Shown here piece after piece: positions 10,785 to 62,445 of a stretch of DNA of 64,000 nucleotides. The notes under the pieces are model-generated. The model saw only the letters and a program-made list of their open reading frames with translations. It made no database searches and was not told the origin of the DNA. How positions within the stretch are numbered: the stretch's first letter is position 1; each line of letters starts with the position of its first letter. The DNA is taken from contig JAHDVF020001353.1 in the NCBI GenBank assembly GCA_022606425.2, forward strand, positions 558,001 to 622,000, given 5' to 3'. This stretch comes from Lepidostoma basale (Eukaryota; Arthropoda; Insecta; Trichoptera; Lepidostomatidae). A program made the position numbers and the translations under genes.

Positions 10785-10963
10785 AATTGTCCATTGTTTT
10801 GTCCGAAACACTATGATACTTCAACTTTATTACTTTTAAAATTTAAAGCACTGTTATACTCGTAATATCACAATTTCTTTTTATTCACTGAGAGTATCGC
10901 GATAGCTGTTTCGCCAACCGATGTTGGCATCATCAGGTATTACAATAAACTGGTTTATTGTAA
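10785..10963 (-). repeat. FB-1 unit, single arm
   Basis: Outer end GTCCATTGTTTTGTCCGAAA followed by CACTATGATA matches the outer ends of FB-1 at 19460, 43100 and 53985. The inner part is a hammerhead-like motif on the minus strand. It is truncated by a LINE-A fragment at 10964. Confidence 0.7.
10895..10945 (-). ncRNA. Hammerhead-ribozyme-like motif (FB-1)
   Basis: On the minus strand: CTGATGA (10936-10930), then a stem II hairpin GCCAAC-ATCG-GTTGGC with six perfect pairs, then GAAAC, then AGCTATC. All core positions CUGANGA and GAAA are kept, and AUC is an allowed NUH cleavage triplet. Stem III would be the nearly self-complementary CAGCTA. Self-cleavage is inferred from the motif alone; stem I pairing is weak. 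Confidence 0.6.
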
Positions 10964-11065
10964 ACTCGCGCTTCTTCTACATTCACACACTGTGACACGC
11001 ACGCTCGTCGATTGCTGCTACTTCATAAATAGCCTTTCAGTATTTGATTAAATTCGTCATGCCAT
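10964..11065 (-). mobile_element. LINE-A internal fragment
   Basis: CTTCTACATTCACACACTGT, GCACGCTCGTCGATTG and CAGTATTTGATTAAATTCGT match the LINE-A coding region just before the 3' end (compare 39590-39660), with the tail missing. Confidence 0.65.
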
Positions 11066-11074
11066 AATTAGTAT

Positions 11075-11218
11075 TTTTAAATGAAATTTCTTTGGTTAAA
11101 GTTCATTTTAAATAATGAAAACATAGAAATTTTATACAAAATTTCTTTATAATTATATATTTAGTGTGCTTCCACTTGTGTTTGTAGTCGACCGGTTTCG
11201 GCAGCTTGCTGCCATCTT
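11075..11218 (-). repeat. FB-2-related unit with hammerhead-like core
   Basis: GTTCATTTTAAATAATGAAA and GCTTCCACTTGTGTTTGTAG lead to a minus-strand core AAGATGGCAGCAAGCTGCCG then AAACCGGTCGAC. Stem II (GGCAGC/GCTGCC) is perfect and GAAAC-CG-GTC is intact. The first three bases of CTGAAGA are lost where a LINE-A piece abuts at 11219. Confidence 0.55.
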
Positions 11219-11326
11219 TTGGTATCTATGGTCCTGCCATGTCTTACTTGGCCTTCCTCGACTTCTTTTTTCATACACACTATTTGTATATATCTTTTTG
11301 ACCATTCTTCCCTCATTCATTCGTTC
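11219..11326 (-). mobile_element. LINE-A copy, part left of the BEL insertion
   Basis: TGGTCCTGCCATGTCTTACT, CTATTTGTATATATC and ACCATTCTTCCCTCATTCAT are LINE-A. The text stops at CGTTC and continues at 16415 (CATAAGCCCAAACC), so one element was split by the LTR retrotransposon. Confidence 0.85.
11322..11326. repeat. Target-site duplication, left copy
   Basis: CGTTC directly before the left LTR, repeated at 16410-16414 directly after the right LTR. Five bases fits BEL/Pao integration. Confidence 0.85.
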
Positions 11327-12470
11327 TGTTTCAGCCTAAAGGTCACTTCTCACTTTGACACTTCAGCTGAAACTTACTTTCGGTCCTGGCACTCGGCTAA
11401 GCGGAAGCACGGCTTCCTGATGGTGCAGCACACATACCCCCACGGCACTTTTCCAAAATAATAACTCCGGTCTCGGATCGAACTATTTAATTCCGCCCAA
11501 AGCATTACGACATTCCTAGCAAATGTCCACTTCTTCGACGGAACGGAAAACTGACGTGAGGTCGCGGGAGCGTAAGGATGGTCCTTACTCTAGCACTGAC
11601 AAGTGGTGACTTCTCCCTTCTCTAAAAGGGTACTGAATATAAAGCCAACCCTGACAAAGGGTGGCTGGTTTTCCCGTTACCTCAAGTCCATTCCGTTCCG
11701 TGACATATTTATGCACATTAATTACAAAATTAAAACTTAATATTTAACTAATTATAATCTTAACCTAACCACACCGTAAGGCTTTACCTTTCACCGTGTA
11801 GGCCAATTAGATCAATTTACATAAAATACTAAGTCGTTACATATCTATTCATATAACAAAGATGCAAAGACAAACAAAGACACACAAACATTACAAAATT
11901 TAAATACTGCAATAATGTTAGGTATAACTAACATATATCTAAAATGTACTGTAACTAACCAACTCTTTTTATTTATAATAATAAAATTTTAAAATAATAA
12001 TTTTCTAACTGCCTACCCTCTCGGGGAAACGGCATGATGGTTTCTTATCATTGTACCTACTGCTAGGATTATCCTTTATGAGCGCTCTATAGAATTTACT
12101 GTTTACATAAACTTTAAGTAAACTAATTTTGATGTTTGGGACTAACCCATTTTAACTATTTGACCTAAACAAACGACCTAAATGCATTGTTTGAAGAATA
12201 CGGGGAAAACTGCAATTATGTTTATTGACCTTTTAAAATACCTTTCTCCGGTCCTAAGCCAGCACCTTTGACTGTTCGGCCTATACAAATAACATCCAAA
12301 CAATTATTTATTATTTTATTTGCCAGAAATACCCGCGATAATATTCAAAACCTTTACAAGTCGGCAAACAAAGGTAAAAATTATATCTACATAAATAACA
12401 TCTGTAATTATTTAAAGTCTAAATGTCTAGTTGCTAACATCTTTGTTTGATTACAAAAATAGCCTAAACA
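11327..12470 (-). repeat. BEL/Pao 3' LTR
   Basis: On the element's own (minus) strand it runs from TGTTTAGGC (12470) to GCTGAAACA (11327), so it has TG...CA ends. Positions 11467-12470 are the same length (1,004 bp) as 15406-16409 and appear identical throughout by reading. The remaining 140 bp at 11327-11466 differ clearly from the 94 bp at 15312-15405 in the other LTR. A 34-bp piece like the LINE-A 3' end lies inside at 12007-12043. Confidence 0.9.
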
Positions 12471-12482
12471 TTTCCACCCCTT
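12471..12482 (-). promoter_or_regulatory. Polypurine tract of the BEL element
   Basis: AAGGGGTGGAAA on the minus strand directly precedes the 3' LTR, the expected plus-strand primer. It sits in the loop of a 12-bp inverted repeat, GTTTGATTACAA (12445-12456) and TTGTAATCAAAC (12481-12492). Confidence 0.8.
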
Positions 12483-12589
12483 GTAATCAAACTAATTCTA
12501 ATATGGTTACATAGAAACTTTAAACTAAGTTTAGTATGGCTACTAAGATACTTTAAACTAAGTCTAATATGGCGACCTTTGTTACAGGT

Positions 12590-15271
12590 TTACGATATAT
12601 GCCATACGCGGTTCTTGTCTCTACTATTTTCTAATTTTTCCTCTTCCAGTAAAAGCGTGTGCAGAACTTCCGATCTAAGTTCTGGGTGGTTTTCATCCAC
12701 CTCTTTCTTGACATCATTTTCAACTACATTTTCTACAGAAGGTAGCCACGGCCTACATTCCGTGCCTACAATTTCATCAATTTTTCTCAGTTGATGGGGC
12801 ACAAATACAATTTCATCAATTTTTCTCAGTTGATGGGGCACAAATGATTTAAAATTTGTATCATCCAATTGAAGCCAACACATAACGGTATTGGAATCCG
12901 TCCAAAGATGTGTGGATGTATACTTTATAGAGTGATTTTCTATAATTGTTTTTGCTAAGCGATTTTCCAGCAGGACTCCCTGAAGATCCTTTACCTTCCT
13001 TGCAATGAAGGTTGCTTTTATATTTTCTGTTACTTTCTGCACTCTGCAGTATGCGACACAACACAGTTTCATTTTATTAAAATCGCAAAATATATGAAAT
13101 TTTCGATTTTTCACTTTTACGCATCCTTTCTCGTAAAATCGGAGTATTTTCACGTGTTTTACTTCACACTGAATTTTTAACCAGGCAACCAACTCATTAT
13201 AGTTGCGAGTATTTATCGATATCTTTTCATCGATGTCAATCCTTGATAGCCGCACAATTTGCATCAAAAATTTTAATCTAACTGTCAGAGGGGCGAGGAA
13301 CCCGGGCGGATCAAACGCTGTTATGATCACCTTAAGCCTTTTCCTCTTGTTCCGTACTTGAACGTTCGAAATGATTTCCTTTCCTATTTTCTTGAATCTC
13401 AAATCGAAAAAGAGTATATCTAGTTTTGTATCGCATTGTAAACCTAAAGTTCTCTGAACCATGTTTACTCCTTTAAATTTTACTAAGTTATGAAATCGCT
13501 CCGATGGAGGTATATTTTTAAATGCTATCAGACGATTCAATGCCCGACTAGTCATATTAAACCCGCCTTTATCATGCATAAATCTGATTTGTCTTATTAG
13601 ATGCTGCGCAGCCTCATCTGATTTTACGCTATCTAAGTAAACTTCCATATAATATTTAATACGAAAAGCATCTACTGCTTCCGGATGTTTTCCAGTAAAT
13701 TTTTCCACATTTTTCTTTTTGACATATTTTGCAGATAACATTAACGATTTAGCCCCAAATATTATTGAGCACATTGCATATGTGACAGGTGGCAATTCGC
13801 GATTATTTCCTCTCCAAAGAAATAATAATTGATTAAAAACATCTTTCTCTACGATGTTTATCTGGAAAATCATTTTCTGTATGTTGACCGTAAACACAAT
13901 TTTGTGTTTTCTAAATTTAAACCTTATTCCTAATACTGAATTATATAAGTCGGGGCCCTTTAGTAATTTGTCATGCAACGAGATAACTTTAAGTTTGGCC
14001 GCTGCATCGAACACAATTACCAATTTTCCTGATTTATTTGAATTAAATACTGTGAAGCGAGGCAAGTAAAACTTATATATAATACACATAATATTTTTAA
14101 CCAACAATTGTCTTGCATAAACATTTAAATTACAATTTTCTATTTTATTACAATTAGCTTCGGAAAATTCCCTATTTTTATAAACCTTTTTCCCTAATGT
14201 GATTTTGTCATTTTCACATTCCTTATTTTTATCTACATATGATTTGCACACTACCGATTGCTTAGGTATGTACAAATCCTCAATAACACTGGCATTTACA
14301 CTGTGCAACTTATTTTCATTATTTGGCCTACCGGTAAATAAGGATAAAGCCTTACCTTGATCCGCGATGCGATCGACTACAGCTGAGTCGTTCGATGAGC
14401 CGGGAACTGGTCTCCCGGATTTCTCTGCATGTGGCTCCACCGATGTCATCTGGCGCCACCCCTCGTATGGTTGACTGCCGATGAATTGGTCCGGTCTCCC
14501 TGCAGGATGTCCCATGGAAGAATCGTCTTTGTTCTGCTGCTGCTGCGGCTGCTGTGAGTCCCGCCCTGAATGCGACGGACCCTCGTGTTTCAATTTTCGA
14601 AATTCACCCCGCCTTGATAGCGTCGGGCCCTCTTGATCCGCGATGCGATCGGCTACAGCCGAGTCGTTACACGAGCCGGGAACTGGTCTCCCGGATTTCT
14701 CTGCATGTGGCTCCACCGATGTCATCTGGCGCCACCGCTCGTATGGTTGACTGCCGATGAATTGATCCGGTCTCCCTGCAGGATGTGCCATGGCAGGATC
14801 GTACTTGTTACGCTGCTGCTGCGGCTGCTGTGAGTCCCGCCTTGAATGCGACGGACCCTCGTGTTCCAATTTTCGAGAATCGCCCCGCCATGATTGCGTC
14901 GGGCCCTCGATCTGTTCAGGCGACTCGGAAGATGATGTCCGTCGCCTTTCCAATTCTGGAGTTTGACTTCTCCAGTTAGAGACACGTTCCTTTATACATG
15001 GCGTATTTGAACTTGTGGATCTCATTTTAAACACAAGTTCATTGTGAGCTTCTTCGGCCTCCAAAATTGCCATTTCTGCTTGAAGCTGCGCCTTCCTTTT
15101 CGCTTCTTCGGCCTCCAAATTCGTCCTTTCTGCTTGAAGCTGCGCCTTCCTTTTCGTCAACCTCAGCTGCTCACGGGACTTCCATAACAACGCCTCCATT
15201 CTTGAGCGTGTTGAGAAGCCACTCATCACTGAAGGTGCTCTTGACGCACCTTTAGCGCCCTGCTGCTCCAT
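12590..15271 (-). CDS. BEL/Pao Gag-Pol fusion, internally deleted, RT active site lost
   Basis: A single open frame from ATG at 15271 (MEQQGAKGAS); the frame is open upstream through the primer site, but this ATG is the first after it. Counting from there: coiled-coil Gag start with KAQLQAE repeats (about 40-75); two 92-residue tandem Gag repeats; then an abrupt jump to Pol. Pol has VFDAAAK (about 420), a motif A region TVNIQKM where the usual aspartate is absent, YMEVY where YMDDY is expected (about 541), TAFDPPGFLAPLT (about 651) of the Pao domain and LWTDSNTV (about 789) of RNase H. Protease, zinc knuckle and integrase are missing. Family Pol proteins are roughly twice as long. It reads as a non-autonomous derivative that has kept an open frame of 893 codons. 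Confidence 0.85.
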   Translation of the reverse strand: MEQQGAKGASRAPSVMSGFSTRSRMEALLWKSREQLRLTKRKAQLQAERTNLEAEEAKRKAQLQAEMAILEAEEAHNELVFKMRSTSSNTPCIKERVSNWRSQTPELERRRTSSSESPEQIEGPTQSWRGDSRKLEHEGPSHSRRDSQQPQQQRNKYDPAMAHPAGRPDQFIGSQPYERWRQMTSVEPHAEKSGRPVPGSCNDSAVADRIADQEGPTLSRRGEFRKLKHEGPSHSGRDSQQPQQQQNKDDSSMGHPAGRPDQFIGSQPYEGWRQMTSVEPHAEKSGRPVPGSSNDSAVVDRIADQGKALSLFTGRPNNENKLHSVNASVIEDLYIPKQSVVCKSYVDKNKECENDKITLGKKVYKNREFSEANCNKIENCNLNVYARQLLVKNIMCIIYKFYLPRFTVFNSNKSGKLVIVFDAAAKLKVISLHDKLLKGPDLYNSVLGIRFKFRKHKIVFTVNIQKMIFQINIVEKDVFNQLLFLWRGNNRELPPVTYAMCSIIFGAKSLMLSAKYVKKKNVEKFTGKHPEAVDAFRIKYYMEVYLDSVKSDEAAQHLIRQIRFMHDKGGFNMTSRALNRLIAFKNIPPSERFHNLVKFKGVNMVQRTLGLQCDTKLDILFFDLRFKKIGKEIISNVQVRNKRKRLKVIITAFDPPGFLAPLTVRLKFLMQIVRLSRIDIDEKISINTRNYNELVAWLKIQCEVKHVKILRFYEKGCVKVKNRKFHIFCDFNKMKLCCVAYCRVQKVTENIKATFIARKVKDLQGVLLENRLAKTIIENHSIKYTSTHLWTDSNTVMCWLQLDDTNFKSFVPHQLRKIDEIVFVPHQLRKIDEIVGTECRPWLPSVENVVENDVKKEVDENHPELRSEVLHTLLLEEEKLENSRDKNRVWHIS
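12768..12845 (-). repeat. 39-bp tandem duplication inside the BEL frame
   Basis: ACAATTTCATCAATTTTTCT starts at 12768 and again at 12807. It duplicates 13 residues (FVPHQLRKIDEIV) in frame near the end of the RNase H region. Confidence 0.9.
14361..14912 (-). repeat. 276-bp tandem repeat in BEL Gag
   Basis: TCCGCGATGCGATCG begins at 14361 and 14637. Each unit encodes a 92-residue Gag segment with GRPDQFIGSQPYE and SVEPHAEKSGRPVPGS. The two units differ at scattered bases but stay in frame. Confidence 0.85.
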
Positions 15272-15291
15272 CTTCTTTAGCCAAGTCCAAG

Positions 15292-15309
15292 ATCCAACTC
15301 GAAGGACCA
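15292..15309 (-). promoter_or_regulatory. Candidate primer-binding site
   Basis: TGGTCCTTCGAGTTGGAT on the minus strand begins two bases after the 5' LTR. TGG-starting primer sites complementary to a tRNA 3' end are usual for this class; I do not assign the tRNA. Confidence 0.6.
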
Positions 15310-15311
15310 GA

Positions 15312-16409
15312 TGTTTCAGCCTAAAGGTCACTTTGACACTCGGTTAAACTGAATTTCCTGGTCGCGCACACACATACTCTCACGTCACGTTTTCCCAAAT
15401 AACTACCGGTCTCGGATCGAACTATTTAATTCCGCCCAAAGCATTACGACATTCCTAGCAAATGTCCACTTCTTCGACGGAACGGAAAACTGACGTGAGG
15501 TCGCGGGAGCGTAAGGATGGTCCTTACTCTAGCACTGACAAGTGGTGACTTCTCCCTTCTCTAAAAGGGTACTGAATATAAAGCCAACCCTGACAAAGGG
15601 TGGCTGGTTTTCCCGTTACCTCAAGTCCATTCCGTTCCGTGACATATTTATGCACATTAATTACAAAATTAAAACTTAATATTTAACTAATTATAATCTT
15701 AACCTAACCACACCGTAAGGCTTTACCTTTCACCGTGTAGGCCAATTAGATCAATTTACATAAAATACTAAGTCGTTACATATCTATTCATATAACAAAG
15801 ATGCAAAGACAAACAAAGACACACAAACATTACAAAATTTAAATACTGCAATAATGTTAGGTATAACTAACATATATCTAAAATGTACTGTAACTAACCA
15901 ACTCTTTTTATTTATAATAATAAAATTTTAAAATAATAATTTTCTAACTGCCTACCCTCTCGGGGAAACGGCATGATGGTTTCTTATCATTGTACCTACT
16001 GCTAGGATTATCCTTTATGAGCGCTCTATAGAATTTACTGTTTACATAAACTTTAAGTAAACTAATTTTGATGTTTGGGACTAACCCATTTTAACTATTT
16101 GACCTAAACAAACGACCTAAATGCATTGTTTGAAGAATACGGGGAAAACTGCAATTATGTTTATTGACCTTTTAAAATACCTTTCTCCGGTCCTAAGCCA
16201 GCACCTTTGACTGTTCGGCCTATACAAATAACATCCAAACAATTATTTATTATTTTATTTGCCAGAAATACCCGCGATAATATTCAAAACCTTTACAAGT
16301 CGGCAAACAAAGGTAAAAATTATATCTACATAAATAACATCTGTAATTATTTAAAGTCTAAATGTCTAGTTGCTAACATCTTTGTTTGATTACAAAAATA
16401 GCCTAAACA
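15312..16409 (-). repeat. BEL/Pao 5' LTR
   Basis: Runs on the minus strand from TGTTTAGGC (16409) to GCTGAAACA (15312). It matches the other LTR over 1,004 bp; a 60-codon frame (16207-16389) translates identically to 12268-12450 and is an LTR shadow, not a gene. The last 94 bp at the primer-site end differ from the 140 bp in the other LTR. Confidence 0.9.
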
Positions 16410-16414
16410 CGTTC
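16410..16414. repeat. Target-site duplication, right copy
   Basis: CGTTC, matching 11322-11326. LINE-A sequence resumes directly after it. Confidence 0.85.
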
Positions 16415-19165: not shown

Positions 19166-19202
19166 TTTAATAATCATCTTTATCTTATACTTAATAATTA
19201 TC

Positions 19203-19460
19203 TGTTAAAAATTAAAACACAATTGTATCACAATTTTTTTGTCATTTTTTTTCGCGACAGCTATTTCGCCAACACGTATGTGAAACATAAACGAAGAAAA
19301 TATTATAACACATGATGATGCCAACATATGTTGGCGAAACAGCTGTCGCGAAAATAAAAATAAATCAAACAAATTATGATACCATTAACAGCGATTAAAT
19401 TTTAACAATTAATAATGTTTAATTGAAAAATAATGTTTCGGCCAAAACAATGGACTATTA
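19203..19460 (+). repeat. FB-1 palindromic unit
   Basis: Left arm CACAATTGTATCACAAT and CGCGACAGCTATTTCGCCAA, right arm ATGATGATGCCAACATATGT to CAGCTGTCGCGAAAATAAAA, outer end TTTCGGCCAAAACAATGGAC. The left arm has lost its CTGATGA; the right arm is nearly intact. Confidence 0.75.
19305..19360 (+). ncRNA. Hammerhead-ribozyme-like motif (FB-1)
   Basis: ATGATGA (19312-19318, first core base C changed to A), stem II GCCAAC-ATAT-GTTGGC, GAAAC (19336-19340), AGCTGTC with GUC at 19345-19347. CAGCTG before UC is self-complementary. One core substitution makes activity doubtful. Confidence 0.5.
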
Positions 19461-19480
19461 AAAAATTATCTGTTTATTAT

Positions 19481-20165: not shown

Positions 20166-20191
20166 TTATCCATTTTATTATACTTATTATA

Positions 20192-20450
20192 ACGACCTTC
20201 GTGGCCGAGTGGTAAGTGCATTGACTGCCACCCCGAAGGTTCCGGGTTCGATTCCCGGCGAGGGCTGTGTGATTGTCACACTGTCGTTGGTCTGGTGTAG
20301 AATTCACGGGACAATAAAATGGCGATAGATTAGCTATCTATCACATGTCACGAGAATCACTATGATAGCTATTATACCATTTACATCGATTTGGCTCACG
20401 CTGTCATGATGTAAAGAGCGATTCAACAAAATAATAATAATAATATAATG
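20192..20450 (+). mobile_element. SINE-1, full-length tRNA-derived copy
   Basis: tRNA-like head CTTCGTGGCCGAGTGG with A box TGGCCGAGTGG (20202-20212) and B box GGTTCGATTCC (20245-20255). Then a conserved body (GGTCTGGTGTAGAATTCAC, GGCGATAGATTAGCTA), the LINE-shared end ACATCGATTTGGCTCACGCT and an (AAT)n tail. The extra bases and the tail rule out a functional tRNA gene. RNA polymerase III transcription is expected from the two boxes. Confidence 0.9.
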
Positions 20451-22354: not shown

Positions 22355-22778
22355 ACCAATCTTGTTTTGCGTGTATAATAATTCTTATATCTTTCGTTGT
22401 AACTAAATTATTTTATCAAAATGAACAACCATGTTAAATATCTGATGGAAGTAAAAAAAAACGTTTATAATATAAACGTATAAATAAACCTTGTGTTAAG
22501 TTTTTCACCCATTTAACAAAGAGACGTATATAGGTTAGTGAGATTTATATGTATGATTATATCTTTAAGGCTGCGTATAAAACGTTTTAAAAAAAGGGAG
22601 TACCTCAAAATTTCAGTGGTTATCGTATATTCCGTTACCATTGTATAATCTTATGATTTTACTGAAATATCTTGATGGAAGTATATAATAATTAAATAAA
22701 ACGATATGAAGATAATAATATGTTTAAGTTGTTAATTTAAAATTCATCGTTTTATTTATTCATTGTTTCATGAACTTG
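22355..22778. other. Mostly unassigned; FB-2 trace
   Basis: GATTTTACTGAAATATCTTG and AATAATTAAATAAAACGATA at 22652-22710 are an FB-2 outer end without core. The rest is AT-rich with no gene. Confidence 0.4.
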
Positions 22779-22934: not shown

Positions 22935-23800
22935 TGATTTTGCCTTAAAAAAGCAAGACATATTTTCGCAGACGACGCTGTTTTAATCGCTGACAGCATG
23001 GACGAACTACAAGCCCTAGCGTCAAGAATGTACGAAGTATGCAATAAGTATGACCTTGTGATGAACGTGTCAAAGTCTAAAGTTATGGTATTTGAAAAGG
23101 AAGAATGTATGACGGATTGTGACATAAGTGCGAACGGTGAGAAATTTGAACAAGTTACCGGATTTTTTGATCTGGGAAGCATGTTTACAAGAGATGAAAG
23201 AATGGAGAAAAATATCGGAAGAAGGGTTGGAGCTGGAAACAAAATAAATGTTGCACTCAAAGTCATTACCGCAAATAGAAATATATCGACTGAAGCAAAG
23301 ATGGCAATGCACAATGGAGTTCTAGTCCCGACCATTATGTATCGAAGTGAAGCTTGGAGTTGGCAGAAGAAGGATGAAAGTAGGATAAATGCCGTAGAAG
23401 TGAGGTCACTAAGAAGGATGTGGAGAAAAACAATGTATGATAGAATATCTAATGATGAAGTAAGAAATGAATGCGTGATCAATACAATTAAGAAAGGGTC
23501 ACTAAGATGGTTTGGATATATGGAACGAATGGATGAGGGAAGAATGATTAAAATGATATATACAAGTAGTGTGAATGGGAAAAAAATCGAGGAAGACTAG
23601 GAAGACATGGCATGACCAAATTAATCAATTACCGAACGGCGGCCATGTCCGAAGTAGGAACAATCGACGAGCGTGCGTGTCACGATGTGTGAATGTAGAA
23701 GATGCGCAAGAATTATGCCAGGATAGAACAATGTGGCGATCCATTCTTTCGGCTTACCCTTCTGGGGAAACGCCGTGATGGTTAGTTAGTAATTTAGTTA
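22935..23800 (+). mobile_element. LINE-A, longest copy, with RT motif C
   Basis: Starts inside the RT palm: FADDAVLIADSMDELQ with FADD at 22965-22976, the catalytic metal-binding pair. Then VMNVSKSKVMVFEKE, the thumb region (RRVGAGNKINVALKV), HNGVLVPTIMYRSEAWSWQ, RSLRRMWRKTMYDRIS, GSLRWFGYMERMDEG and, after one frameshift near 23580, KTRKTWHDQINQLPNGGHV, stop, then CGTGATGGTTAGTTAG. Endonuclease and most of the RT are missing by 5' truncation. This is the best template in the window for the LINE-A C-terminal half. Clade is uncertain; RTE-like is my inference from the architecture. Confidence 0.9.
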
Positions 23801-24545: not shown

Positions 24546-24666
24546 AGCTTAAAAAGATGTTTACAGTTATTGGGTTCAAACGACCTGTTTTATAAATAAA
24601 ATACGTATATGCAATGAGTAGAAAAAAATAAGTTTTCTTATTATTCAACTAAGTATGTAACTAACC

Positions 24667-24917
24667 AAATGATTTTACTGAAATCTCTTGATGAAAGTTC
24701 ATTTTAAATAATAATTAAATAAGACTATGTTTTTTAATTACTTCCACTTTTGTCTTTATTTTCGACAGCGACCGGTTTCGCCAGGCTTCCTGACATCGAC
24801 AGACTGGCCCAGACCAGTCTGTCGATGCCAGCGAGCCTGGCGAAACCGATCGCTCTCGAAAATAAAGACAAAAGTTGAGGTAGTTATAAAACATCGGTTT
24901 ATTTAATTATTATTTAA
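24667..24917. mobile_element. FB-2, complete 251-bp palindromic unit
   Basis: From AAATGATTTTACTGAAATC to TTTAATTATTATTTAA. Arms from about 24750 to 24880 fold on each other around GACTGGCCCAGACCAGTC. Each arm carries a hammerhead-like core. GTAACTAACC (24657-24666) and GTAATTAACC (24918-24927) flank it: a 10-bp target duplication with one mismatch, within a LINE-A 3' tail. No coding capacity. Confidence 0.8.
24815..24862 (+). ncRNA. Hammerhead-like motif (FB-2, right arm)
   Basis: CTGTCGA (24819-24825; the sixth core position is T, expected A), stem II GCCAG-CGAGC-CTGGC, GAAAC (24842-24846), CGATCGCTCTC. The left arm has the same motif on the minus strand with GAAACCGGTC. The core substitution argues against efficient cleavage. 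Confidence 0.35.
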
Positions 24918-27079: not shown

Positions 27080-27352
27080 TCCATAATGTTTTTTGTAAAT
27101 TGTTTTTTATTTAAAGAATTACAAATGAATTTTTAACGATTTTTTATGTAACTACCTATCAATAAAAATATTTTGACATTATTTAAATTAGAGTTGGCTG
27201 ACAAACAATATCAAAAAATAATGGAGTGGGAAAGTTTAATGGCGCAAGACATCGGACGCGAAAAAAAAACTGACTTTTTCATTCGTATTAATTATTTAAT
27301 ATGGAGTTTACATCATTATTCAAGAAACAATAAATTCATCCACTTTATTTTT
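27080..27352. other. AT-rich stretch with FB-4 end
   Basis: ATGGAGTTTACATCATTATT and CAAGAAACAATAAAT at 27301-27336 are an FB-4 outer end. The rest shows no gene. Confidence 0.4.
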
Positions 27353-27425
27353 TAGAATGGGGGCCAAACGGTTTCGCTCCAAGCGAGCTTCTTCAGGGCT
27401 TTATACATACTAAAATTAAACATCG
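27353..27425 (-). repeat. FB-5 unit
   Basis: GGGGGCCAAACGGTTTCGCT, CCAAGCGAGCTTCTTCAGGG; related to 36056-36135 and 36873-36935. Abuts the tail of the CR1-like LINE. Confidence 0.6.
27360..27400 (-). ncRNA. Hammerhead-like motif (FB-5)
   Basis: Minus strand CTGAAGA (27396-27390), hairpin GCTC-GCTTG-GAGC, GAAAC (27375-27371), CGTTT. CUGANGA and GAAA are intact; a GUU could serve as cleavage triplet but stem III is not self-complementary in this copy. Confidence 0.45.
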
Positions 27426-30034: not shown

Positions 30035-30345
30035 AAACATTGTTTTTTCCACTTTTGAGTTTATTATTTTCGACATGTTTCTCGACATCGGGTGTACGAT
30101 ATAAACTAACAGTTAGTTAGTTTATGTCATGTTCTTCATAACGTGTCCAAAAATATAAACTCAAAAGTGAAAAAAACAGTGTTTCAATTCACTTTGGAAA
30201 TTGAAAAAAAAAGTTGATTATTATCCACTAAAATATTAAAAATCATGTTTCGAAAGAGACCTCCATCTTCAGGTGTACTTTAAAAGGAATTCCACAGTGC
30301 CTTAACTTTCAATATAGCCTTTTAATTCATAAAACATCCTCATTA
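30035..30345 (-). repeat. FB-3-related palindrome plus FB-3 arm
   Basis: 30050-30170 is an imperfect palindrome: CCACTTTTGAGTTTATTATT against AATATAAACTCAAAAGTG, centred on ATAAACTAACAGTTAGTTAG. On the minus strand its left arm has GAGAAACATGTCG. 30190-30345 is an FB-3 arm with GAGACCTCCATCTTCAGGTG and outer end GGAATTCCACAGTGCCTTA. Confidence 0.6.
30240..30280 (-). ncRNA. Hammerhead-like motif (FB-3), decayed
   Basis: Minus strand CTGAAGA (30272-30266), hairpin with GGAG/CTTT wobble pairs, GAAAC (30251-30247), ATGATT. The core is intact but the GTC triplet has changed to GAT. Confidence 0.4.
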
Positions 30346-32920: not shown

Positions 32921-33171
32921 AGATAATCAAATGATTTTACTGAAATCTCTTAATGGAAGTTCATTTTAAATAATAATTAAATAAAACGATATTTGTAATA
33001 ACGTTAATTCCACTTTTGTCTTTATTTCGACAGCGACCGGTTTCGCCAGGTTCGCTGGCATCGTAGGACTAGACCAGTCTGTCGATGCCAGCGAGCCTGG
33101 CGAAACCGGTCGCTGTCGAAATAAAGACAATAGTGGATGTAGTTAAAAAAACATCGTTTTATTTAATTATT
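32921..33171. mobile_element. FB-2, complete 251-bp unit with 11-bp target duplication
   Basis: Same length and layout as 24667-24917. ATGTCATTTCC lies at 32910-32920 and 33172-33182. The arms carry ACCGGTTTCGCCAGG and its inverse around a centre at about 33068. It has no coding potential. Integration is directly behind the GTC of an FB-4 hammerhead-like motif. Confidence 0.85.
33075..33122 (+). ncRNA. Hammerhead-like motif (FB-2)
   Basis: CTGTCGA (33079-33085), stem II GCCAG-CGAGC-CTGGC, GAAAC (33102-33106), CGGTC. CCGG before UC is self-complementary. One core substitution (A6 to T). Confidence 0.4.
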
Positions 33172-33235
33172 ATGTCATTTCCTTAAAATATAATGAATCT
33201 TCTAGAAAACAGACGTTTTCATTATCATCGTATTT

Positions 33236-36055: not shown

Positions 36056-36135
36056 TTAACCACGGTTTGGTTATTATAATTGTTGCCAACTAGTTTCGCT
36101 TGGACCCAAGTTTCATCAGGGCAGTATAACAACTA
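36056..36135 (-). repeat. FB-5 unit
   Basis: GGTTATTATAATTGTTGCCA and TAGTTTCGCTTGGACCCAAG then TTTCATCAGGGCAG. Matches 36873-36935; the two units bracket a LINE-A copy. Confidence 0.7.
36085..36120 (-). ncRNA. Hammerhead-ribozyme-like motif (FB-5), best core
   Basis: Minus strand CTGATGA (36119-36113), stem II CTTGG-GT-CCAAG, GAAAC (36097-36093), TAGTTGGC. All conserved core bases are present. CTAG before UU is self-complementary and GUU is an allowed triplet. Confidence 0.55.
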
Positions 36136-36149: not shown

Positions 36150-36870
36150 TTGGTTTAGGAAGAATGTATGACAGATTGTGACATAAGTACGAACGGTGAG
36201 AAATTAGAGCAAGTTTGTCTACCTGGGAAGCATGTTTACAAGATATGGAAAAATGGATAAAGATATCGGAAGAAGGGTTGGAGCTGGAAACAAAATAAAT
36301 GGTGCACTCAAAGTCATTACCGCAAATAGAAATATATCGACTGAAGCAAAGATGGCTGTGCACAATGGAGTTTTAGTGCCGACCCTTATGTATGGTAATG
36401 AAGCTTGGAGTTGGGAGAAGAAGGATGAAAGCAGGATAAATGCCGTAGAAATGGGGTCACTAAGAATGATGTGCGGAAAAACTATGTATGATAGAATATC
36501 TAATGATGAAGTAAGAAAGGAATGTAAAGCGGATGAATGCGTGATAAATAAAATCAAGAAAGGGTCACTAAGATGGTTTGGACATATGGAACAAATGGAT
36601 GAGGAAAGAATGGTTAAAAAGGTATATGCAAGTAGTGTGAATGGAAAAAGAAGTCAAGGAAGGCCAAGGATGACATGGCATGACCAAATTAATCAATTAC
36701 TGAAAGGCGGCCATGTTCGAAGTAGGAACAATCGACGAGCGTGCATGTCACGATGTGTGAATGTAGAAGAGGCGCGAGAGTTATGTCACGATAGAACAAT
36801 GTGGCGATCCATCCTCTCTGCCTAATCCTCCGGGGAAACAGCGTGATGGTTGGTTAGTTAGTTAACTAGT
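36150..36870 (+). mobile_element. LINE-A copy, long
   Basis: Open over 197 codons: MFTRYGKMDKDIGRRVGAG, KVITANRNISTEAKMAVHNG, VPTLMYGNEAWSWEKKDES, CVINKIKKGSLRWFGHMEQM, GRPRMTWHDQINQLLKGGHV and RACMSRCVNVEEARELC. The final codons are lost to a stop in the usual AYPSGE region; (GTTA)n tail present. RT catalytic motifs lie 5' of the truncation. Confidence 0.9.
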
Positions 36871-36872
36871 AT

Positions 36873-36935
36873 GGTTATTATAATTGTTTCCAACTTGTTT
36901 CGCTTGGCCCCAAGCTTCATCTGAGCTGAGCGTAG
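36873..36935 (-). ncRNA. FB-5 unit with hammerhead-like core
   Basis: Minus strand CAGATGA (second core base changed), stem II GCTTGG-GG-CCAAGC with six perfect pairs, GAAAC, AAGTTGG. The flank GGTTATTATAATTGTTTCCA matches 36068-36088. Confidence 0.45.
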
Positions 36936-42385: not shown

Positions 42386-42755
42386 CATGCAGTGTTTTAG
42401 CATTTGTGTATTTCATTTTATTAGGAGTTTAGAGTTGACATTTATTTGTATTTATCGCGCCAAGTAACGGAGCCAAAGCCTGATAAATGAATGGATTTGC
42501 TGAATTTAGGATTCATGGAATATTTGTTTGCATAATAAATGTTTCCTGCTAACGGTATATGGGACTTCATAATATTACTCGTGTGTTTTGTACTGTGAAT
42601 ACATGCACGTGAATGTTACTCTAACGAACGTGTAACGTTTTTAATGTCCTAAATAGTGTAATCTAGATTGATTTACATTCAATTTCGATTTTATACGGTT
42701 TTCTTTACGCGGTTTTGAAATAACACGGTCAAAATATCTTAATATTAAATAATTG
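42386..42755. other. Unassigned
   Basis: AT-rich; no gene or repeat recognised. Confidence 0.3.
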
Positions 42756-42802
42756 TTAATGCAAAAACTTTGTTTTATATCACAATTGTATTTATTTTAC
42801 TT

Positions 42803-42850
42803 TACGACAGCTGTTTCATCAACCAATGTAGACATCATCAGGTGTTACAA
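42803..42850 (-). ncRNA. Hammerhead-ribozyme-like motif (FB-1, left arm)
   Basis: Minus strand CTGATGA (42841-42835), stem II region GTCTAC-ATTG-GTTGAT with one mismatch, GAAAC, AGCTGTC. CUGANGA, GAAA and GUC intact; CAGCTG self-complementary. Confidence 0.55.
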
Positions 42851-42967
42851 AAATATATATCAAATGTCAAATTTTCGTAATTTTTCGAATCTTTGTGTAT
42901 TTGTATTTGGAACAAATACACAAAGATTCGAAAAATTACGAAAATTTGACATTTGATCTATATTTCT

Positions 42968-43020
42968 GTAACACCTGATGATGTCAACATTGGTTGATGA
43001 AACAGCTGTCGTAAAATAAA
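42968..43020 (+). ncRNA. Hammerhead-ribozyme-like motif (FB-1, right arm)
   Basis: CTGATGA (42975-42981), stem II GTCAAC-ATTG-GTTGAT, GAAAC (42999-43003), AGCTGTC with GUC at 43008-43010. Complete core. Stem I pairing between CAC before the core and GTA after GUC is short, as in other minimal retroelement hammerheads. Confidence 0.6.
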
Positions 43021-43119
43021 TACAATTGTGATATAAAACAAAGTTTTTGCATTAATAAAATGTTAAAATATCATAGTGTTTCGGCCAAAACAATGGACTA
43101 CTTAATATTAAATGCAACG

Positions 43120-46629: not shown

Positions 46630-46865
46630 TAATACTGTGGAATTCCATAGTAATAAACTTAGGACATTGAAAATAACTTTGTTTAATCCACTAAATATTA
46701 AAAAAATATTAAACAACACGACATGTTTCGGAGGATATCTCATTTTTCAGGTGTAAAAATATAATAAAAACATAATACAAAAAATAATTAAAAAATAAAC
46801 AAAAACTAAACTAGTTTTTATTATATTTTTACACCTGAAGATGGAGGTATCCTCAAAAGAAAAGA
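46630..46865. repeat. FB-3 palindromic unit
   Basis: Outer end AAGGCATTAATACTGTGGAA, left arm CATGTTTCGGAGGATATCTC to TGTAAAAATATAATAAAAAC, right arm GTTTTTATTATATTTTTACA to CCTGAAGATGGAGGTATCCT. Arms separated by about 40 bp. Confidence 0.75.
46715..46755 (-). ncRNA. Hammerhead-like motif (FB-3)
   Basis: Minus strand CTGAAAA (G8 changed to A), hairpin, GAAAC, ATGTC with GUC at 46722-46720. CATG before UC is self-complementary. The right arm has an intact CTGAAGA (46835-46841) but lacks GAAAC. Confidence 0.4.
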
Positions 46866-53965: not shown

Positions 53966-53984
53966 AAGCTTAAAACACATTAAA

Positions 53985-54545
53985 TAGTCCATTGTTTTGA
54001 CCGAAACACTATACCTTAACATTTTATACTATTAAATTAAATAACTTTGTTTTTTGTATCACCATTGTATTTTATTTTACGCGACAGCTGTTTCATAAGC
54101 CTATGTTGACATTATTCCCCATTAGTTTATAGTACATTAAAAACTTTTCCCCTATACAATCTAGGTAAAAAATAATAATACTACCCTCAACTTTTGTCAA
54201 CTTTCTTATTAACGTAATCTACTTCCTGTTATTATTTACCCTTTTTAATTTATTATGTTTCATATTTTTTGACTCTATACTATGTGTAATTGTTAAAAGT
54301 AACTAACCGATCTTTTAATTAAAATATTTAGGTACCTAACTCAATTTCAGCAAGAACCTCAAAATTGTATCAAAAAAATTATTCAAATTAACAGAGGAAC
54401 AAATACACATAAAGGTTCGAAAAATCACGAAAATTTGACATTTGACACATTATTGTAACAACTGATGATGTCAACAAAGGTTGATGGAACAGCTGTCGTG
54501 CAAAATAAAATACAATTGTGATACAAAAACAAAGTTATTGAATTT
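53985..54545. repeat. FB-1 unit with arms ~270 bp apart
   Basis: Outer end TAGTCCATTGTTTTGACCGA, left arm CAGCTGTTTCATAAGCCTAT to about 54120, unrelated AT-rich insert, right arm from GAGGAACAAATACACATAAA (54392) to CAAAGTTATTG. Same family as 42756-43105. Confidence 0.8.
54465..54505 (+). ncRNA. Hammerhead-like motif (FB-1), mutated
   Basis: CTGATGA (54472-54478), stem II GTCAAC-AAAG-GTTGAT, GGAAC instead of GAAAC, AGCTGTC with GUC at 54495-54497. The change in the GAAA core probably inactivates it. Confidence 0.4.
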
Positions 54546-54589
54546 AACAGTTTAAAACAAATTGCATACATTCAAACGACCTGTTGTAT

Positions 54590-57000: not shown

Positions 57001-57002
57001 TT

Positions 57003-57308: not shown

Positions 57309-57339
57309 AATATAACATAATATATTTTTTAATACCAAC

Positions 57340-58306: not shown

Positions 58307-58515
58307 GACGATCTTCGTGGCCGAGTGGCAAGTGCTACGACTGCCATATGGAAGGTCCCTGGTTCGATTCCCGGCGATGGCAGTCTGATTGTCTAGTATG
58401 GAATTCAGGTGACATTAAAAAGGCGATAGATTAGCTACCTATCACATGTCATGAGAATCAATATGATAGCTATATTTTTGACATCGATTTGGCTCGCGCT
58501 GTAATATTATATGCC
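58307..58515 (+). mobile_element. SINE-1 copy
   Basis: GATCTTCGTGGCCGAGTGGC, B box GGTTCGATTCC, body partly deleted (CTGATTGTCTAGTATGGAAT), end ACATCGATTTGGCTCGCGCT. Its 3' end runs into a minisatellite. Confidence 0.85.
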
Positions 58516-58780
58516 ATTATTTTTATCATTGAGTAAAATATGTCACTAATTTTATCATTGAGTTAAATATGCCACTAATTTTATCATTGAGTAAAATATG
58601 CCACTAATTTTATCACTGAGTAAAATATACCACTAATTTGTCATTGAGTAAAATGCGCCACCAATTTTATCATTGAGTAAAATACGCCACTAATTTTGTC
58701 ATTGAGTAAAATATGCCACTTATTTTATCATTGAGTAAAATATGCCACTAATTTTATCATTGAGTAAAATATGTCTTTTA
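58515..58780 (+). repeat. 29-bp minisatellite, about nine units
   Basis: Unit ATGCCACTAATTTTATCATT plus GAGTAAAAT, with units differing at one to three positions (for example GCGCCACC, ATACCACT). It starts exactly at the SINE-1 end. Confidence 0.95.
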
Positions 58781-59145
58781 TTTTTCTCTGAATTTTTACG
58801 TATTTATTTGATTATTTGCACAAGTAATTAACAAATTTTACTCAATGCAAAATAAAGATATATTCGATTTGAAAGGTTAATATTTTTGACTATTATTAAC
58901 TTTGTGATCACAAATCATTTTTGCCCTTTACTTTAATGGATTAATTCATAAATTAAAGTAAATATAAAAGCTTAATCAATAGCTTGACATTTTCAAATAA
59001 TATTATATAATTTGATAACGCTGTCAAATCAATCTCTGTCATTTTCGGATAGACAGCGAGCAAGTCACCAACTAAAATACGTCGGTGTGGCCTACTGGTT
59101 CATTCACCCTAATATTGTTTTTTTGTTAATAAATTTCCATAATAT
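58781..59145. other. Unassigned
   Basis: AT-rich; a 60-codon frame runs into the LINE-A piece that follows. No gene. Confidence 0.3.
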
Positions 59146-59612
59146 AAAGAAATATGAAAGTAGAATAAATGAAGTAGAAATGAGATCTCTTTGACGAAAG
59201 TGTGGGGATACTCTGTGTATGATAGAGTGTTGAATGAAAATATAAGAAGTGAACTAACTAACTAACCGCCGCGTCCCCGAAGGGGTAGGCAGAAAGAATG
59301 GACTGCCACACTTTTCTTTCCTGACATATTTCTCTCGCTTCCTCAACATTCATACATCGTGTCATGCACGCGCGTCGATTTCTAGAAAAAACAGAAATAA
59401 AAGAAAACCGAGGAAAACGTGGCACGATCAAATAAATCAAATATTGAATGACGGCCATGTGAGGAGTGAGATAAATCGACGTGCGTTCATGACGCGTTGT
59501 ATGAATGTTGAGGAAGCGAGAGGAATATGTCAGGAACAAAAAGTCTGGCAGTCCATTCTTTTTGCCTATCCCTTCGGGGAGACGGCGTGATGGTTAGTTA
59601 GTTAGTTATTAG
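59146..59612. mobile_element. LINE-A mosaic, plus-minus-plus
   Basis: 59146-59253 plus (KYESRINEVEMRSL), 59254-59384 minus (tail ACTAACTAACCGCCGCGTCC to GCACGCGCGTCGATTTCT), 59385-59612 plus (AAACCGAGGAAAACGTGGCA to GACGGCGTGATGGTTAGTTA). Either a nested insertion with target loss or recombination between copies. Confidence 0.85.
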
Positions 59613-60040
59613 TTCTTAAATAAAGAACATCGCGTCACGTGATTAAAAATTCAAATCACCTGACTTCAATTGATCGGACATACTCGAACCATCTGACACC
59701 AATTCACAATTTCTAACCACTTTTTATCGCAATGAATTTCATCCTAGATTATTAACCCCTCGAACACAATGCGGGGGTTATGTGACCCGGCCCATCTAGC
59801 CAGCTTTGTAGGACCCATTATCTCCTTGTCAGCGTTTTGTACGGCGCGACGTCAACTCTGACACGACATCGCTTGATTGATTGGGAAAATTCATTTTTCT
59901 TTTTAACGCCATTTTCTGGGGATGGAGTGTCACGTGTGATATCTATAAATCAGCCACGTTCGACGTTGTTGTTTAACTTTCATACTCTTGCGCCGATTTT
60001 CGATTTTAGTTACCATATTATATTAATATTCTTCTTCTTT
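59613..60040. other. Unassigned, mixed composition
   Basis: 59760-59860 is GC-richer (CACAATGCGGGGGTTATGTG; GTACGGCGCGACGTCAACTC). No gene or repeat recognised. Confidence 0.3.
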
Positions 60041-60430
60041 TAATAGATCTGACGATCTGTGACCCAGAAATTATATCTCGTCGGATGATGAGATCCAGCT
60101 GTCCCTCCATCTCTTAGGCGGTCTTCCAGGTGGGCGGTGTCCGAAGGGGATTTCATAAGCGGCTGCATATGCAAGTCTGTCACTATCCTTTAAGGCTACA
60201 TGGTACCTCCAATATCTTCTTCGGGATCTACTCCACTCAACGATATCCTCCATTTCGCAAGTTTTTCTTATGTCTACGGCGCGGACACGATCTTGGAGAG
60301 TTTTTCCAGTAATTGGATCTTAGGACCTTCATCTCCGATGTTCTTAGTAGTCCCTTGGTTTGCACAGTGTCAGCCCGCGTCCCTACAGCGTACGTCATGA
60401 TAGGTCGCACGCATGTTTTATAGATTCTGA
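60041..60430 (-). mobile_element. LINE-C copy, 3' part
   Basis: Minus strand: RACDLSxTYAVGTRADTVQT-type start, MEDIVEWSRSRRRYWRYHVA, YAAAYEIPFGHRPPGRPPKR, WRDSWISSSDEI, stop, then a purine tail. Open over the last 60 codons, frameshifted before. Confidence 0.85.
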
Positions 60431-60591
60431 TCTGATATTAATATTATATATTTCCATAAATAATGTCACTTTAGAGTCTATACCCGGTGGATGACGTCAG
60501 TGACCTTTGTTTTTTTCTCTTACCGTATCGTTTCTGACTCTGTCTCTTAGGCTTATTCCTAACATGGTTCTTTCCATGGCTTTTCATGGCC
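60431..60591 (-). mobile_element. Unassigned spacer with LINE-F shred
   Basis: TCTTAGGCTTATTCCTAACA and TTCTTTCCATGGCTTTTCAT at 60540-60590 match the MERTMLGISL codons of LINE-F on the minus strand. The rest is unassigned. Confidence 0.45.
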
Positions 60592-60725
60592 GATAAGAAC
60601 ATCAGATGCAGCGTTTATGTTCAGTATTTAGATTTAAAACACGTCTCAATGTGCCCTTGAAGTGATTACATCACCAAAACGGCGCTTTAAAAGTAAGCAT
60701 ATTGTTATAATTATTATTATGATTT
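60592..60725 (+). mobile_element. LINE-B 3' UTR and tail
   Basis: CAGATGCAGCGTTTATGTTC, AAAACACGTCTCAATGTGCC, AAAACGGCGCTTTAAAAGTA and a decayed ATT tail; matches 26534-26655. Confidence 0.8.
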
Positions 60726-60794
60726 TTATAATAAATACTTTTTTTTTCAATAAAATTTTTCCCCCCTGTTTTTAACTTTATAAATAATTAATTA

Positions 60795-60950
60795 ACTAAC
60801 CATCACGTCTTCTCTCCGAAGGGGTATGCAGAATGAATGAACTGCCACACTATTCTTTCCTGAGATACTTCTCTCTGGATTCCTCAATATTCATACATCG
60901 TGCCATGCACGCACGTCGATTTCTCTGACTTCTCGCGTGGTTCTAACTTT
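60795..60950 (-). mobile_element. LINE-A 3' end
   Basis: AACTAACCATCACGTCTTCT, GAACTGCCACACTATTCTTT, GCACGCACGTCGATTTCTCT; truncated at 60950. Confidence 0.85.
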
Positions 60951-61024
60951 ATATATTATAATATTTATAATCTTACACAACTGACACTTCATCTTATTTT
61001 TAAATAATAAAAATAACACATTTA

Positions 61025-61130
61025 CGACTAATTAACTCACTAACTAACCATCACGCCGTTTCACCGGAGAGGTAGGCAAAGTTGATGGACCGCCACACTC
61101 TTCTATCCTGACATAACTCTGGCGTCTCTT
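61025..61130 (-). mobile_element. LINE-A 3' end
   Basis: CACTAACTAACCATCACGCC, ACCGCCACACTCTTCTATCC, then cut by the CR1-like LINE tail at 61136. Confidence 0.85.
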
Positions 61131-61135
61131 ATTTT

Positions 61136-61440
61136 TTCAAATCAAATCAGTTTATTTTCTCAAAAGATATTATAAACAACAACTAGAATTAAAGGCATCT
61201 ATTGAGAACAGGTAAAATATAACATAATAATACTCGTACCAGTAACGCATGAGAAATGGTTCGACTTTAGAAATACAAGATACTCTCCAAAGTCAAAAGT
61301 ATTTGTCTTATAAACGTTCATTCAATTATATGTAAAAATTCGATCTCCGACGCGACCGGCATCACAAGAGGTAGGTTGGTTCTGCATGTTGGGGATAAAA
61401 CAGTCTGTGCTGACGTTGTCGAAGATAAAGATGGATACCC
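61136..61440 (-). mobile_element. CR1/Jockey-like LINE 3' end, TTGAT-type tail
   Basis: Starts (3' end) with CAAATCAAATCAGTTTATTT, then CATCTATTGAGAACAGGTAA (reverse of GATGCC...ACCTGTTCTCAATAG), and a decayed coding end with AGGTAGGTTGGTTCTGCATG (RTNLP codons). Confidence 0.75.
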
Positions 61441-61844
61441 TCCAAGATGACAGAATTTTCAAAGAATGTTCTTCTACGTTCACACACCGTGACACGCACA
61501 GTGAAATCTCAAGAGGTCATTCTGATGTTATGTTTAGTAACTTTGCTTCTTATTGGCATTATTGTCCCTCCAATGAATCCCGAGTATTTTTTTTAACATA
61601 GAATTGCATATTATTTTTTTATTGAAAGTTATTTTATTACACTGGCAATATCAATAAATCAGGACTTTCGTGTTCCTCAAGCGTTTTCAATTAAATATTC
61701 CGAATTTGGAGTGAACTTTTCTTGAGCGTTATGCACCGAGCATGGTACCAGGGAGGGTTGAAACATTTACGGATTAAAATAATACTTACTACAGAAACTC
61801 TGTAATCTCATAAAGAATTTTAGCCCCCTTGGCGTCATTCAAAG
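61441..61844. other. Mostly unassigned
   Basis: A small LINE-A shred at 61466-61505 (TTCTTCTACGTTCACACACC). The rest shows no gene or repeat. Confidence 0.35.
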
Positions 61845-62200
61845 CTCGTCGTTTCTGTGCCTTTTGCTCAGAGCAGTCCCCCAGATCCATATAGACCTAA
61901 AACTGAGAATACTCCTCATCAAGACCTACGTATGGAGTATCTTGATGTACGGCTGCGAGACATGGTGTCTATCCGAAAGAGATAAACGGAGACTAGAGGC
62001 TTTTGAGATGTGGTCCTATAGAAGACTATTAGGAATTTCCTGGAGAGACCACATCACAAATGAGGAGGTTCTCCAAAGAATCGAAGTAGGAACGCACCTG
62101 CTCAGGACATTGTCCGAAAGGCGTGCAAGATGTATCGGCCATGTAATACGACAATAAAATGTTGCAAACCAATCTCAGGATTGAAACCAGAGAGAGAGAA
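61845..62200 (+). mobile_element. LINE-E copy
   Basis: DLKLRILLIKTYVWSILMYG, CETWCLSERDKRRLEAFEMW, SYRRLLGISWRDHITNEEVL, QRIEVGTHLLRTLSERRARC and a stop at RQ; then a deletion to the 3' end AATCTCAGGATTGAAACCAG. It keeps core residues better than 37880-38370. Confidence 0.85.
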
Positions 62201-62324
62201 CCAAATCAGCTAGAACATTATCCACCAGGCGCTCTCTATGCCTTTATCTAATCTATAATAGGTGACCAGCTAACCAATAATGGGATTCCTTAGAATTAAG
62301 TCGTCTAAAGTTAATTAATAATAC

Positions 62325-62445
62325 ACTTTGGAATTGAAAAATAACACTATTTATTTTCCATTTAAATATTACATATCTCGACATGTTTCGGAGGAGACCT
62401 CCACCTTCAGGTATAAATATATAACGAGAAACTAAACAATGAAAG
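62325..62445 (-). repeat. FB-3 single arm
   Basis: GGAATTGAAAAATAACACTA, CATATCTCGACATGTTTCGG, AGGAGACCTCCACCTTCAGG. One arm of the FB-3 palindrome. Confidence 0.7.
62385..62415 (-). ncRNA. Hammerhead-ribozyme-like motif (FB-3)
   Basis: Minus strand CTGAAGG (last core base A changed to G), stem II GGAGG-TCT-CCTCC with five perfect pairs, GAAAC (62399-62395), ATGTC with GUC at 62392-62390. CATG before UC is self-complementary. Confidence 0.45.

Follow-up and report, generated by a model that had tools for sequence, protein, structure and literature searches.

A 64,000-nucleotide stretch of the Lepidostoma basale genome (contig JAHDVF020001353.1, positions 558,001 to 622,000; C457:558001-622000 in our numbering, hereafter the window) carries several families of short palindromic repeats with hammerhead-ribozyme-like cores. 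What are these repeats, and why do their arms lie head to head? An earlier note, made from the letters of the window alone, took them for unrelated, independently amplified non-autonomous families. We searched the assembly (769 Mb, 1572 contigs), following end positions at depth in family 2, and propose that the repeats very probably arose by twin priming, as insertions of 5' leaders from Penelope-like elements (PLEs), a reading built on sequence comparison.

A hammerhead-like fold is abundant in the genome

Exact matches to CTGATGA-N(6-30)-GAAAC number 32,355 genome-wide, against 730 for the reversed pattern. A strict scan (CTGANGA, a hairpin of at least 4 bp and GAAA, with 0-2 extra bases allowed after A9 and none on the other side) found 4 matches in the window, where 20 Markov simulations averaged 0.25, and 21 in C1:1-200000, where another 20 averaged 0.75; such cores exceed chance. 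A looser scan of the window returned 6 matches for a simulated mean of 1.9. With a fuller descriptor (core with at most one mismatch, stem I of at least 3 bp, stem II, a 2- or 4-nt loop III and an NUH triplet), 13 matches appeared in 264 kb and 1 in total over five simulations of equal length. CTGANGA alone is not significantly enriched in the window (30 found, 22.7 expected). All four cores that had been quoted as intact are present at their coordinates and strands; those at 10936 and 42975 are among the 4 strict matches, and those at 42841 and 36119 carry a stem II mismatch.

The stems behave as parts of a fold. Across 20 hand-chosen representatives of about 12 sequence families, pairs in stems I and II vary with pairing largely kept, and all three stems show covariation in a count that takes no account of how the families are related. 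Families 1 and 4 have a weak stem I, and U3-A8 replaces C3-G8 in three of five family 4 copies. Stem III consists of two pairs. Its loop is self-complementary (AGCU, AU or CG) in 19 of the 20 representatives and, within the 264 kb, in 29 of the 33 motifs whose triplet is correctly spaced, the exceptions being AA twice and AG twice; 10 further motifs there lack a correctly spaced triplet. A self-complementary loop III would allow a stem III of 6 or 8 bp across two RNAs. Lunse et al. are said to have reported a dimer form of such ribozymes in 2017, and minimal Penelope hammerheads reportedly cleave as dimers.

Families 1, 5 and 6 match the consensus core CUGANGA...GAAA...NUH with one extra base after A9. 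In all 25 strict matches the extra base is an A or a T and separates A9 from stem II. It may not be new, since an A9-U-G reading would agree with it. The title of one paper, cited in PMC6155905, names an extra nucleotide in a viroid hammerhead core.

Set against a hammerhead assignment are three results. All Rfam hammerhead models score below the gathering threshold in the window, so the covariance-model check proposed earlier gave no match; none reaches even E up to 10 in 42700-43100; and the family 2 core is CUGUCGA, with U for A at position 6, which departs from the consensus while the rest fits. We describe family 2 as probably working like a hammerhead, not as a consensus member.

Family 2 matches the putative 5' leader of a coding Penelope-like element

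Of 541 candidates in a genome search for GIY-YIG endonuclease domains, 150 were scored and 62 of these matched, with minus/plus pairs on five contigs. One locus (L029, contig C742) holds PLE-A, a 758-aa open frame with RVT_1 (1.4e-13) and GIY-YIG (6.6e-5) in one open reading frame (ORF). Downstream of this frame by 385 nt lies CTGTCGATGCCAGCGAGCCTGGCGAAACCGGTCGCTGTC, the family 2 fold of the window. PLE-A has 1343 protein relatives, of which the 120 listed are 33-59% identical and those with a named organism come from insects. In IMG/VR, 4 stretches matched a pattern, and none encodes a relative by tblastn.

Ten GIY-YIG loci were fetched, 8 of them non-bacterial. Four of the 8 carry the family 2 motif downstream, with the same element. 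One (L039) has a second GIY-YIG frame followed by a family 3 motif, one (L034) is a decayed relative with a decayed motif plus a separate family 1 palindrome, and two have no scored motif. The other two matches, C102:20600-24400 (L031) and C729:133900-137600 (L032), were rejected as uvrC-like frames beside other bacterial-looking frames; C102 and C729 look like bacterial contigs, symbiont or contaminant, inside the animal assembly. Also rejected was family 1 as the 3' end of PLE-B: the family 1 palindrome of L034 is separate and lies beyond a decayed family 3-like motif.

How does the motif relate to the coding frame? We numbered family 2 from C3 of the hammerhead-like core (position 0). L029 has a TATA box, TATATAAAG, at -36. 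The frame that begins with the ATG at +99 translates as MNFHQEISVKSFDY as far as the long arm extends, and the N-termini of four relatives that were opened among the 120 listed (MEFHQ, MDFRK, MNFDH and MNFRK) resemble it. From this frame and this similarity it follows that the short arm ends just before the ORF and that the additional stretch on the long arm, the tail, holds the first codons. Longer PLE-A also occurs head to head: inverted arms are present in L029 and L030, and in a longer copy the arms are 99.85% identical over 1331 bp and truncated unequally. The window itself holds six family 2 features:

24654-24807, minus strand: left arm of a palindrome, covering -5 to +147 of the PLE-A leader, tail included (blastn to L029 91.6%, and read in the sequence)
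24813-24917, plus strand: palindrome, right arm, -6 to +97, no tail (blastn to L029 92.4%)
32923-33063, minus strand: palindrome, left arm, +4 to +140, with tail (blastn 92.9%; 11-bp flank repeat ATGTCATTTCC)
33073-33173, plus strand: palindrome, right arm, -6 to +93, no tail (blastn 96.0%)
8646-8797, minus strand: single arm, -7 to +140 (82% identity)
22644-22705, minus strand: 3' fragment, +73 to +141 (84% identity)

Elsewhere, C1:33024-33204 is a possible diverged family 2 relative (72-77% identity) that reaches further upstream.

Family 2 is thus the putative 5' leader of a coding PLE, with the link from leader to ORF running through the N-terminal similarity; no copy was seen in which the leader continues into the ORF, and no completed search was aimed at this. 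Its copies would be truncated insertions of that element, not an independent non-autonomous family, and we infer that the family 2 unit is an mRNA leader copied from internal start sites to the 5' end of the RNA. Family 3 copies are probably PLE insertions as well. Of the earlier reading, the fold and the Penelope link stand; for family 2, 'unrelated' and 'independently amplified non-autonomous' do not.

Could these nevertheless be independent hammerhead families, retrozyme-like or like short interspersed elements, that are moved in trans? The window encodes no PLE ORF: as first noted by eye, no PLE reverse transcriptase is seen there, and tblastn with the PLE-A protein and the PLE-B endonuclease found none at E up to 1e-3. 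The copies are mostly much shorter than a PLE. Among the GIY-YIG loci fetched, no copy of families 1 and 4-8 was linked to an ORF, which also counts against extending our proposal to them. The window also holds a direct tandem array of a 178-bp unit whose motif is family 8-like and decayed, an arrangement found in retrozymes and in tandem pseudo-long terminal repeats (pLTRs). Against movement in trans, family 2 is the PLE-A leader as far as codon 14, with 91.6-96.0% identity across the four arms of the two window palindromes; a family 3 motif sits downstream of a GIY-YIG frame; and family 2 arms are head to head, not tandem. We consider trans-moved families unlikely.

Paired family 2 arms mostly carry one long and one short 3' end

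The family 2 k-mer at +40 to +60 occurs 11,096 times in the genome. From 100 listed places we fetched 75 stretches, which yield 129 arms, 125 of them with a visible 5' end (4 were cut by the end of the stretch and dropped), and 48 minus/plus pairs. Neighbouring arms across 72 loci are minus-plus in 48 of 53 cases, plus-minus in 3 and on the same strand in 2; but the array at 9651-10176 is tandem, and not every family is confined to head-to-head pairs. That array could be a tandem pLTR or retrozyme-like.

Two 3' ends recur, one just before the ORF (about +96) and one about 14 codons inside it (about +140). Longer genome copies end mostly near +140 and few at about +96, and the same two ends are seen in the 264 kb. 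Pairs combine them: of 43 classed pairs, 40 join a long arm to a short one and 3 have two short arms (5 of the 48 were unclassed), and the rule held in 19 of 19 further pairs chosen for truncated centres, giving 59 of 62 classed pairs among 67 examined. Both family 2 pairs of the window obey it. By alignment, the same anatomy appears in family 1 at C1:8337/8475, 67225/67315 and 70389/70506 and in the window at 53979/54396.

The flanks and centres carry further marks of insertion. Flanks share at least 9 bp in 25 of 46 pairs, against 5.7% of mismatched flanks, and 23 of the 25 share 11-14 bp; in the later set the figures are 17 of 19 pairs and 5.6%. Pairs thus often carry a target duplication of around 12 bp. 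In 31 of 46 centres there is filler of 2-46 nt, part of it taken from sequence close by, and the other 15 are joined directly or through an overlap. One head-to-head junction, +10 with +29-31, recurs at 7 loci (L041-L044, L046, L084 and L097) with the tail on either arm; we set it aside, since a 6-nt microhomology explains it. Two observations fit our proposal poorly: a single arm is all that is seen in 24 of the 72 loci, and the family 1 pair C1:60633/60760 shows no long/short difference.

The same features bear on how a palindrome could arise. In self-priming, a hairpin would form when an antisense template or a cDNA folded back on itself and was copied; this predicts head-to-head palindromes and is the hypothesis published for rotifer Penelope (PMC3846280). 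Under fold-back copying, the 59 of 62 pairs whose arms begin at different places in the RNA are hard to accommodate, as are arms truncated at different places and centres with filler. Unequal starts, unequal truncation and filler fit two separately primed cDNAs better, and we regard self-priming as quite improbable. Foldback DNA transposons, inverted-repeat miniature elements that chance to hold the motif, would likewise give palindromes with target duplications. Their centres would not be expected to vary as these do, nor their arms to differ in tail and truncation, and family 2 sequence is that of a PLE leader; this origin is scarcely credible. Two separately primed copies of a PLE leader remain the preferred account of a pair.

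A subset of arms begins at the predicted cleavage site

Where do arms end on the 5' side? In 45 of 125 arms the 5' end falls at -7 to -4. A TATA box at -36 would place the start site in just this interval, and we take the pile-up to mark the putative transcription start.

Cleavage after the GUC of family 2 is predicted to create a new 5' end at +33. This position was first suspected from one family 2 pair and then from the 75 stretches, where it is the end of 7 arms in 5 loci against 0.60 per background position (a count that leaves out 14 arms from the recurrent +10/+29-31 junction); the highest other position has 3. We then compared two sets of junctions, each made up of the first places in contig order, not of a random sample. 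In one, the first 100 of 264 junctions, one arm reaches -5 (single mismatches tolerated in tracing); in the other, the first 50 of 153, both arms are truncated with at most 30 nt between the k-mers (no mismatch allowed). With both arms truncated, 42 of 100 arms end at +33, where a simulation of random ends expects about 5% or some 5 in 100; the next position, +38, has 18. At 16 loci both arms end at +33. Of the 50 loci we fetched 19, the further pairs counted above, every one of which has one or both arms at +33; they comprise 14 of the 16 loci and five others. Their flanks share only short stretches (14-33 bp, involving 8 loci), and 17 have target duplications. The simplest reading is that the +33 loci are separate insertions from RNA beginning at +33. 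The family 2 subset that starts at the predicted cut reads as a genomic record of the putative ribozyme working in the living animal.

Might +33 instead reflect a stop of the reverse transcriptase or a preference in joining? Clusters elsewhere do track microhomology: in junctions with a start-site partner, two of the peaks, +18 and +29, coincide with CTGG and GGT shared by the arms, and the third, +39, adjoins the anchoring k-mer. At +33 itself a 2-nt GC overlap, found in 10 of the 16 centres with both arms there, would favour joining. However, the better palindromic overlap ACCGGT (6 nt, +26 to +31), the longest possible microhomology join, is used in 0 of 50 junctions, and at 5 loci plus one apparent duplicate both ends lie at +33 with filler and no overlap. 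By reasoning, a stop before stem III would be expected at +32. If a pure stop or joining preference were at work, junctions with full-length partners ought to reveal it too, and they do not. Such an origin of the +33 ends is therefore improbable, in our judgment, and cleavage is the reading we carry forward.

Several points temper this reading. The pile-up at -6 could be a reverse-transcriptase stop rather than a start site. Junctions whose partner arm extends to the start site show no enrichment at +33, which has 4 ends among 100 of the 264 junctions and does not exceed adjacent positions. Because of the GC overlap, exact ends are uncertain by as much as 2 nt in these 10 centres, and among the 16 loci one resembles a local duplicate of another. 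The 48 unselected pairs, with 7 start/start, 2 start/+33 and 1 +33/+33, are too few for a test of coupling between arms. In family 1, no arm was noted at the predicted +36 among the few arms read by eye.

The absence of +33 with a full-length partner and its strength with two truncated arms suggest a cleavage state common to both arms. Start-site ends far outnumber +33 ends (45 to 7), so independent arms would give many more mixed pairs than +33/+33 pairs, which is not what is seen. This suggests that cleavage affects both arms together; either one RNA was copied twice, or two RNAs were cleaved together as a dimer.

A twin-priming model for leader insertion

In the mechanism that we propose, transcription would begin about 6 nt upstream of the hammerhead-like fold, under the TATA box at -36, and the RNA could self-cleave after the GUC to leave a 5' end at +33. 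The GIY-YIG endonuclease would cut the target with a stagger of about 12 bp. Both target 3' ends would then prime reverse transcription inside the RNA, one at about +96, before the ORF, and the other at about +140, near codon 14. Each cDNA would extend toward the 5' end of the RNA, whether start site or cleavage site, or stop early, and end joining would unite the two cDNA ends head to head. The product would be a short palindrome with its 3' ends facing outward and one tail. Other families may follow the same course.

A more tentative idea, which we hold to be possible though rather less likely than not to be right, is that the insertion complex is built on a hammerhead dimer as its RNA scaffold: a pair of leader RNAs, joined through their self-complementary stem III and cleaved or uncleaved together, would be the templates of two reverse transcriptases, one working from each target strand. 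If true, this would explain both the palindromes and the cleavage state common to the arms.

Comparison with known systems

The Poseidon/Penelope element PAc of Anolis carolinensis (PMC11167929) resembles PLE-A in several respects. It too combines a reverse transcriptase with GIY-YIG, its hammerhead overlapping the ORF start; C3 and G8 are needed for cleavage. Reverse transcription likewise starts inside the RNA, in PAc 111-118 bp into the ORF, and two such start sites bound a 'tail', with both target strands cut and extended. In PAc these two sites show no strand difference, and no RNA-seq reads fall at the cleavage site. In L. basale, by contrast, genomic insertions begin where cleavage is predicted, and the arms of a pair stem from different start sites.

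The endonuclease-containing Penelope of the rotifer Adineta vaga (PMC3846280) is described with a pLTR bearing TATA and initiator elements, an inverted pLTR and head-to-head palindromes, all as in L. basale. There the first 12-22 ORF codons lie in the pLTR plus tail, an optional 31-bp tail of early codons is found on one inverted pLTR, and target-site duplications are 8-10 bp. A tail on one inverted arm had thus already been described in the rotifer; its near-constancy (59/62) is new here. Whereas the rotifer element is low in copy number and self-priming was proposed for it, L. basale holds thousands of leader copies and evidence for two separately primed cDNAs. The rotifer paper also asks for tests of self-priming (PMC3846280), and for head-to-head Penelope structures the different RNA start sites of the two cDNAs separate double priming from it.

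Minimal Penelope hammerheads share with these repeats a tiny stem III, thousands of dispersed copies and an association with PLEs (PMC7761336, PMC6155905 and PMC10085705). The L. basale motifs differ in the extra A or U after A9 and in the footprint that points to activity. Metazoan retrozymes are also small, hammerhead-bearing and very numerous (PMC7229834), and the decayed family 8-like array of the window resembles them; in contrast to their tandem 150-450 bp repeats and circular RNAs, family 2 consists of head-to-head leader insertions. In a literature search that returned excerpts and did not cover the main papers on these ribozymes, we found no report of insertion ends at a Penelope hammerhead cleavage site.

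In 2020 the in vivo activity and role of minimal hammerheads were called 'still a mystery' (PMC7761336). With thousands of leader insertions in this one genome, the question of in vivo activity becomes one of counting copy starts, and in family 2 these include the predicted cleavage site, within the 0-2 nt left by overlaps. The end-counting test can be repeated in any Penelope-rich animal genome.

Other copies and features in the window

The remaining hammerhead-like copies of the window are these:

42753-42904, minus strand: family 1a palindrome, left arm, aligned to about +83 (core at 42841)
42912-43098, plus strand: family 1a palindrome, right arm, longer, to ACAATGGAC (core 42975-43010; right end by eye)
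53979-54115, minus strand: family 1a left arm, long, to +131 (alignment)
54396-54557, plus strand: family 1a right arm, short, to +93 (relaxed core at 54462)
10782-10958, minus strand: family 1b single arm (core 10936-10901, AUC triplet)
19192-19273, minus strand, left, and 19301-19461, plus strand, right: family 1 pair
46704-46795, minus strand, and 46812-46854, plus strand: family 3 pair
30186-30277, minus strand: family 3 copy (core at 30272)
62364-62456, minus strand: family 3 copy (core CTGAAGG at 62410)
36085-36130, minus strand: family 6 motif (core at 36119)
36870-36935, minus strand: family 6 motif, degenerate core CAGATGA at 36923
27345-27410, minus strand: single motif CTGAAGA-A-hairpin-GAAACCGTTTGG (core at 27396)
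9651-10176, plus strand: 2.9 direct tandem copies of a 178-bp unit, a decayed family 8-like motif (CCGATTTTGAAGG..CCTTCAGATATGTC) in each

A further single motif at 11188-11221 on the minus strand, CAAAAGA-T-GGCAGC..GCTGCC-GAAACCGGTCG, has a decayed core with an intact stem II and stem III palindrome.

Beyond the repeats, a tRNA-like match (Rfam RF00005, 32.4 bits) at 20195-20266 on the plus strand may be a gene or a tRNA-derived repeat. An open frame of 917 aa at 12593-15343 on the minus strand, with a charged, coiled-coil-like start, resembles a retroelement polyprotein. Related frames lie at 22938-23597, 36208-36822 and 62660-63112, two of them with EAW(N/S)W..KDE(S/N)RINAVEM; these three resemble the 3' ends of a reverse transcriptase of the long interspersed element type that recurs in the window and in C1.

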